Shown here: positions 3,353 to 3,695 of the stretch, one piece after another
Layout of the letters: each line of letters opens with the position of its first letter
Position numbering within the stretch: position 1 is the first letter of the stretch
Assembly: GCA_015068615.1 (NCBI GenBank)
Contig: SVKE01000008.1
Location: forward strand, 1-39,157
From: Oscillospiraceae bacterium
GTDB taxonomy: Bacteria > Bacillota > Clostridia > UBA1381 > UBA9506
DNA length: 39,157 bases
Direction: 5' to 3'
The notes under the pieces: generated by a model
The model's input: only the letters and a program-made list of their open reading frames with translations
Databases searched by the model: none
What the model was told of the DNA's origin: nothing
Position numbers and translations under genes: made by a program

Positions 3353-3381
3353 ATTATAGCATGAAGCATGGCAATTGTCAA
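3353..3381 (-). promoter_or_regulatory. SigA-type promoter of the TIM-SIS-YjbQ-permease operon
   Basis: Minus strand TTGACA-17 nt-TATAAT (3381-3376 / 3358-3353), exact consensus. Confidence 0.85.
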
Positions 3382-3430: not shown

Positions 3431-3695
3431 AAAGGGGCTGTAGCAAAATGCTACAGCCCCTTTAGGGGATGGACGAAAAATAGCGCAGATTGGACAAACT
3501 GAGTCCCGAAGGCGTACGTGGGTACGCCGAGAGGCGAAGTTTGTTCGAAGTGCAAAGCATTTTAATCTAGAAAATCGTTTTAAAACGATTTTTTACCACT
3601 CGTAATTTCATTCTTGTAATTTCTTTCCAACTACAATGTGCTAATATAGGCTTTTTGTGCTTGCACGGTCTGAGCATTTTGCTACAGTCCCTTTT
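3431..3695. repeat. MITE-like element with terminal inverted repeats
   Basis: Left end AAAGGGGCTGTAGCAAAATGC; right end GCATTTTGCTACAGTCCCTTT, inverse of left with one mismatch. Interior has several hairpins (3492-3546, 3511-3528, 3571-3592). Right-end sequence recurs at 22288 and 27983. Confidence 0.65.

Follow-up and report, generated by a model that had tools for sequence, protein, structure and literature searches.

The window, a stretch of 39,157 nucleotides from an Oscillospiraceae bacterium (contig SVKE01000008.1), contains an intergenic element of about 265 nt at positions 3431-3695, the right limit being approximate. It is flanked by the stop codon of topA (3699), identified by its Pfam Topoisom_bac match, and by the promoter of a TIM gene (PF00121). 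The Pfam matches and the promoter uphold the location given in a preliminary description of this DNA. This copy lies behind topA, is oriented away from it and is found immediately upstream of the TIM gene's own promoter, a perfect TTGACA-17-TATAAT. The latter, a sigma-70 consensus promoter on the minus strand (3353-3381), has a TG ahead of its -10 box. All structures reported earlier were found in place: the matching ends with one mismatch (3431-3452 and 3673-3694, 22 nt, 95% complementary), the left 33 nt as a complete hairpin with a perfect 16-bp stem (3430-3445/3449-3464), the compound interior fold in which GGACAAACT (3492-3500) pairs with AGTTTGTTC (3538-3546) and encloses the GGCGTAC/GTACGCC hairpin, and the 22-bp AT palindrome at about 3571-3592. 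The element had been described as free of coding frames. This holds for 3464-3656, where no frame of 60 aa or more is present, but a mechanical ORF of 78 aa starts at 3657 in the right end and continues into topA.

The nested hairpins of the interior are not loose units but belong to a single conserved, strand-specific fold (Table 1). Helices P2, P3 and P5 join in a tight three-way junction with P4 and P6 as inner hairpins. P3 encloses conserved GA-rich internal loops around P4 and an optional site, after 3504, at which many lineages carry an extra variable hairpin. P1 and P2 together bring the 5' and 3' sides of the core together as its closing helix, and in P2 the consensus is AAAAU-A-GYGC paired with GYGC-AUUUU. 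Folded as RNA, the + strand of the whole element was far stabler than dinucleotide shuffles (z = -8.1). Compensatory double changes were present at 31 of 41 predicted pairs in an alignment of 53 copies. A core-only alignment (45 sequences, 56 pairs) had 91.3% of its cells paired, double changes at 40 of the 56 pairs and a covariation score of 0.338, as against 0.162 for shuffled and at most 0.098 for slid versions. In 31 further copies, mostly from other families, which were found by the model and whose alignment was fitted to it, 94.5% of cells were paired and 48/56 pairs showed double changes. G-T cells outnumbered A-C cells by 153:37 and 111:19 in the two alignments, and the + strand folded better than the opposite strand in 75 of 76 copies. 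Because of this G-T excess and the better folding, we regard the + strand as the functional one, either as RNA or as single-stranded DNA (ssDNA).

Table 1. Features of the dispersed element in the window.
Feature	Position	Strand	Evidence
Whole dispersed element (hairpin H, folded core and right end)	3431..3695	+	Copies, sharp ends, unrelated flanks
H, near-palindromic terminator-like hairpin AAAGGGGCTGTAGC-aaaat-GCTACAGCCCCTTT	3431..3463	.	Inverted repeat; solo copies; arm covariation
Folded core, model R1 positions 1-242, about 229 nt	3465..3692	+	cmsearch E 3.1e-41; 56-pair consensus
P1 5' strand, closing helix of the core, pairs with 3688-3691	3465..3468	+	Strong covariation in distant families
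P2 5' strand AAAAU-A-GCGC-AGA with bulged A, pairs with 3669-3680	3477..3489	+	91.8% paired; 7/12 double changes
P3 (3490-3500/3538-3548)	3490..3548	+	99.4% paired; 8/12 pairs with double changes
P4 hairpin GGCGUAC-GUGG-GUACGCC	3511..3528	+	96.5% paired; 5/7 pairs with double changes
P5 5' strand GUGCAAAGCA, pairs with 3658-3666	3550..3559	+	96.7% paired; 7/10 double changes
P6, the AT-rich palindrome described earlier	3569..3594	+	10/11 pairs with double changes
P5 and P2 3' strands	3658..3680	+	Consensus structure
Right end R: P2 3' part, internal loop, P1 3' strand	3673..3694	+	Repeats I1, D1

The terminal inverted repeats of the window copy are present as described, but R repeats arm 1 of H in inverted and arm 2, the second half of the hairpin, in direct orientation. 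As R is part of P1/P2 and resembles H, the terminal inverted repeat of this copy is best regarded as a by-product. Across lineages, 80.6% of positions are paired between the H arm and R, which is above shuffles and below the 92.8% within the hairpin itself, where 11 of 11 pairs show double changes.

The genome of origin (1.32 Mb, 74 contigs) was searched with the element region of the window. Multiple copies with sharp ends, which the preliminary description had proposed to look for, were found: about 14 full-length or contig-cut copies are 82-92% identical to the query. There are also fragments in which the left hairpin is retained, a small number of fragments of the right end, and no fewer than 13 solo copies of the 33-nt hairpin. 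Left-anchored fragments are commoner than right-anchored ones. Ten full copies are 75-94% identical to one another, and alignment of their 200-nt flanks is no better than chance (median about 0.2). Contig C73 has two core units in head-to-tail order. With one genome compared per species, related copies were detected within the genus, the family and the order, several of them in tandem, and 16 copies of another genome, G106, show 86-95% mutual identity. No excess of matching flanks, and thus no target-site duplication of the kind that the preliminary description had proposed to look for, was seen among 41 copies.

The copies are located at the 3' ends of genes, mostly of convergent ones. In 40 copies with long flanks the neighbouring genes are convergent in 24 cases, co-directional in 16 and divergent in none, compared with a background of 22% convergent and 22% divergent (convergent excess, p 3e-7; divergent lack, p 6e-5). 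H follows the stop codon of the left-hand gene at a short distance, and the right end is usually 0-16 nt off that of the right-hand gene. A bias towards one replication strand, judged by GC skew, is weak (27 vs 14). Members of the same genus have a bare hairpin without core after topA, with a similar stem in several of them (L109, L112 and L113). At a further locus (L122 in the related genome G012) the core stands directly behind a topA terminator with a stem, GAGGGCGTTTAAAAAGT, that bears no relation to the usual H, which hints that some lineages use the host terminator.

H is a G+C hairpin found at gene 3' ends, here with a run of 3-4 T. A simple terminator scan gives it no score because this run is too short. 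GTAG sits inside its stem and is missing in some lineages. Most solo copies follow the 3' end of a gene and have convergent neighbours. G106 contains 29 near-identical 46-nt hairpins (control 0); the core follows directly after most of them in the same orientation, in one case it stands on the other side of the hairpin, and a few are solo. Left flanks in this genome switch abruptly at the hairpin, and one copy lies behind a tRNA gene. The copies of genome G028 likewise have the hairpin in common. Several distant lineages lack H, and there P1 alone closes the core, in very different, covarying sequences; H is therefore not part of the element everywhere. We also considered H as a pre-existing target beside which the core had inserted. 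The copies of G106, in which H is joined to the core with a constant orientation, favour H as part of the mobile unit in that genome, but one inverted case and the lineages without H make this no more than probable. The inverted case is copy L201, in which the asymmetric H loop is reversed relative to the core when compared with L199 and L202, pointing to an inversion of the hairpin or an insertion on its other side.

Among 291 sampled genomes of the class Clostridia, 48 have a match to the covariance model, so that the structured family is present in about one sixth of them. Carriers often have at least seven copies each, seven being the highest number scored. In a 300-genome sample of the phylum the model matches the own genome only. 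Stricter filters were used in both samplings and weak copies may be missed. Named loci with the exact core word are from metagenome-assembled genomes of gut Clostridia, except for one Arsukibacterium locus, where the match spans only 22 nt. The annotated plasmid collection gave no match to the element. The core was without match in the annotated phage collection, in which two records match the left-hairpin part only; one viral contig contains the core motif. No Rfam 15 family scored above its gathering threshold in the window or in 39 loci from relatives and distant carriers. Automatic annotation based on Rfam consequently cannot name the element. The structured repeat is real and class-wide, and apparently uncatalogued. 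It is a member of a broad known kind, the non-autonomous structured repeats, and its architecture is unusual.

We consider it probable, at roughly two chances in three, that the window copy is a non-autonomous dispersed (mobile) element of Clostridia which combines H with a core folded as RNA or ssDNA, and whose remnants persist as ordinary terminators. Both halves of the earlier interpretation are retained here, the mobile element through many copies, sharp ends and unrelated flanks, and the structured RNA or terminator cassette through the terminator-like hairpin at gene 3' ends and the conserved fold. Machinery acting in trans would recognise the fold as RNA or as ssDNA and make new copies, and insertion would proceed without target duplication. 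The built-in hairpin might keep transcription ending properly and so render insertion harmless. Subsequently, the core may decay while selection retains H as an ordinary terminator, which would leave left-anchored fragments and solo hairpins behind. Selection for termination seems indeed to explain best why H-anchored fragments and solo hairpins persist. The movement step we infer, since target duplications are lacking and the candidate enzymes are absent or unlinked; no mobilising enzyme was identified among reverse transcriptases, TnpB, IscB and RAYT. Only tentatively do we propose that this is a novel kind of bacterial mobile element, distributed across the class Clostridia, which would depend for its transposition on an enzyme that recognises the multi-helix fold of about 229 nt, as RNA or ssDNA, and which would seed terminators through the hairpin it leaves. 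If the element is mobile, it spreads by settling behind genes with its own terminator, and some of the terminators in these gut bacteria would then probably derive from a mobile element. As the covarying fold is strand-specific, RNA-guided and ssDNA-guided movement can be directly tested against each other.

How new copies arise can be explained in other ways. The preliminary label was that of a MITE-like element with terminal inverted repeats. In a classical MITE, a DDE transposase supplied by another element would act on the left arm of H and on R as terminal inverted repeats. In line with this, the element is short and without genes, its many dispersed copies end sharply amid unrelated flanks, the ends of the window copy are inverted, and complementarity between left and right exceeds shuffles throughout the family. 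'MITE' fits this behaviour but fails the target-duplication test. Moreover, R is part of P1/P2 in the conserved core, covariation is better between the two arms of H than between them and R, the left arm is absent from distant lineages, and the inverted ends are only partly kept across the family. Unlike MITEs, the element has an interior that forms a conserved one-strand fold. With partial left-right complementarity and several lineages lacking the left hairpin, we do not find the label of a MITE with terminal inverted repeats supported and regard such an origin as quite unlikely. Also improbable is an RNA in the service of the host, i.e. a bidirectional terminator or a 3'-UTR stability element multiplied by gene conversion instead of transposition. 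The strict placement at gene 3' ends, the conserved hairpin and the strong conservation of structure would suit such a role. It would leave unexplained why the flanking genes are unrelated, why congeners have no core after topA and why copies occur in tandem arrays, and gene conversion creates no copies at new sites.

The remaining alternatives invoke particular enzymes. Copying by a reverse transcriptase, as in a retroelement or an intron-like RNA of the group II kind, would agree with the RNA-like fold of one strand, with its joined ends and with a location beside terminator hairpins, which group II introns also favour. We regard it as very improbable, because RVT_1 reverse transcriptases were absent from the ten genomes of the genus searched, Rfam recognised neither an intron nor its catalytic domains, and fragments are mostly truncated on the right and not on the left. 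HEARO and omega RNAs of IscB and TnpB transposons resemble the element as large folded RNA-like units with mobile, gene-less copies. They differ in that the element has no Rfam HEARO match, and searches found no IscB (PF14239) in any sampled carrier and no TnpB (PF07282) above the cut-off in the own family. Being absent from key carriers, reverse transcriptase, TnpB and IscB were rejected as partners. A REP-like element moved in trans as ssDNA by a RAYT (TnpA_REP, HuH/Y1) transposase is doubtful, although it accounts for several traits. Like REP/BIME sequences, the element is chromosomal, intergenic, hairpin-based and multi-copy without target duplication. RAYT subfamily genes are enriched in carriers (26/48 vs 27/243 non-carriers; odds ratio 9.5, p 3e-10, uncorrected for phylogeny), and one is present in the own genome. 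However, the association is weak at the order level (p 0.11), and 22 of the 48 carriers have no such RAYT, including G106 with its many near-identical copies and G069, which is about 100% complete. The surroundings of 20 RAYT/Y1 genes, to a distance of about 1.5 kb, contained no clear copy of the element and only one weak partial match, and several RAYT genes carry a different, in-frame REP (GTAG with GGGCGATTC..GAATCGCCC). A REP is a hairpin of 20-40 nt with a GT[AG]G foot, whereas the element measures about 265 nt and its core has six helices. RAYT is thus associated with the element, but neither necessary nor linked to it, and we rejected it as an obligatory partner.

In the literature we found no description of the element. 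The mobile/repeat structured motifs (MRSC), 250 candidates of which were presented by Narunsky et al. (2024, PMC11109978), are similar in having a covarying structure and many copies per genome and in being possibly selfish, as RNA or DNA. The comparison is by the one example described in that paper, which differs from the element in being a single long stem.

Some further observations concern individual loci. The palindromic REP inserts of RAYT-like genes were located in frame at L138:1460 and 1622, L142:350, L143:1628 and L151:1641; one example is GTAGGGGCGATTCACGAATCGCCC, and they encode stretches such as GAIHESP. In-frame REP insertions have been described for TnpA_REP subclass 2.4 (PMC6006769). 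In genome G324 (L194-L197) several copies of the element are located within a larger repeat with the ends AATTTGGAGTTTATCGAGCTG and ATAAACTCCAATTT, which looks as though a different mobile element had taken them with it. After topA of genome G005 (L111), two shortened units that resemble the core but differ in P3 (CTCGAAATGAAAAAAGGC...GTGGTGAATTTCG) follow each other in tandem, possibly representing a distinct subfamily.
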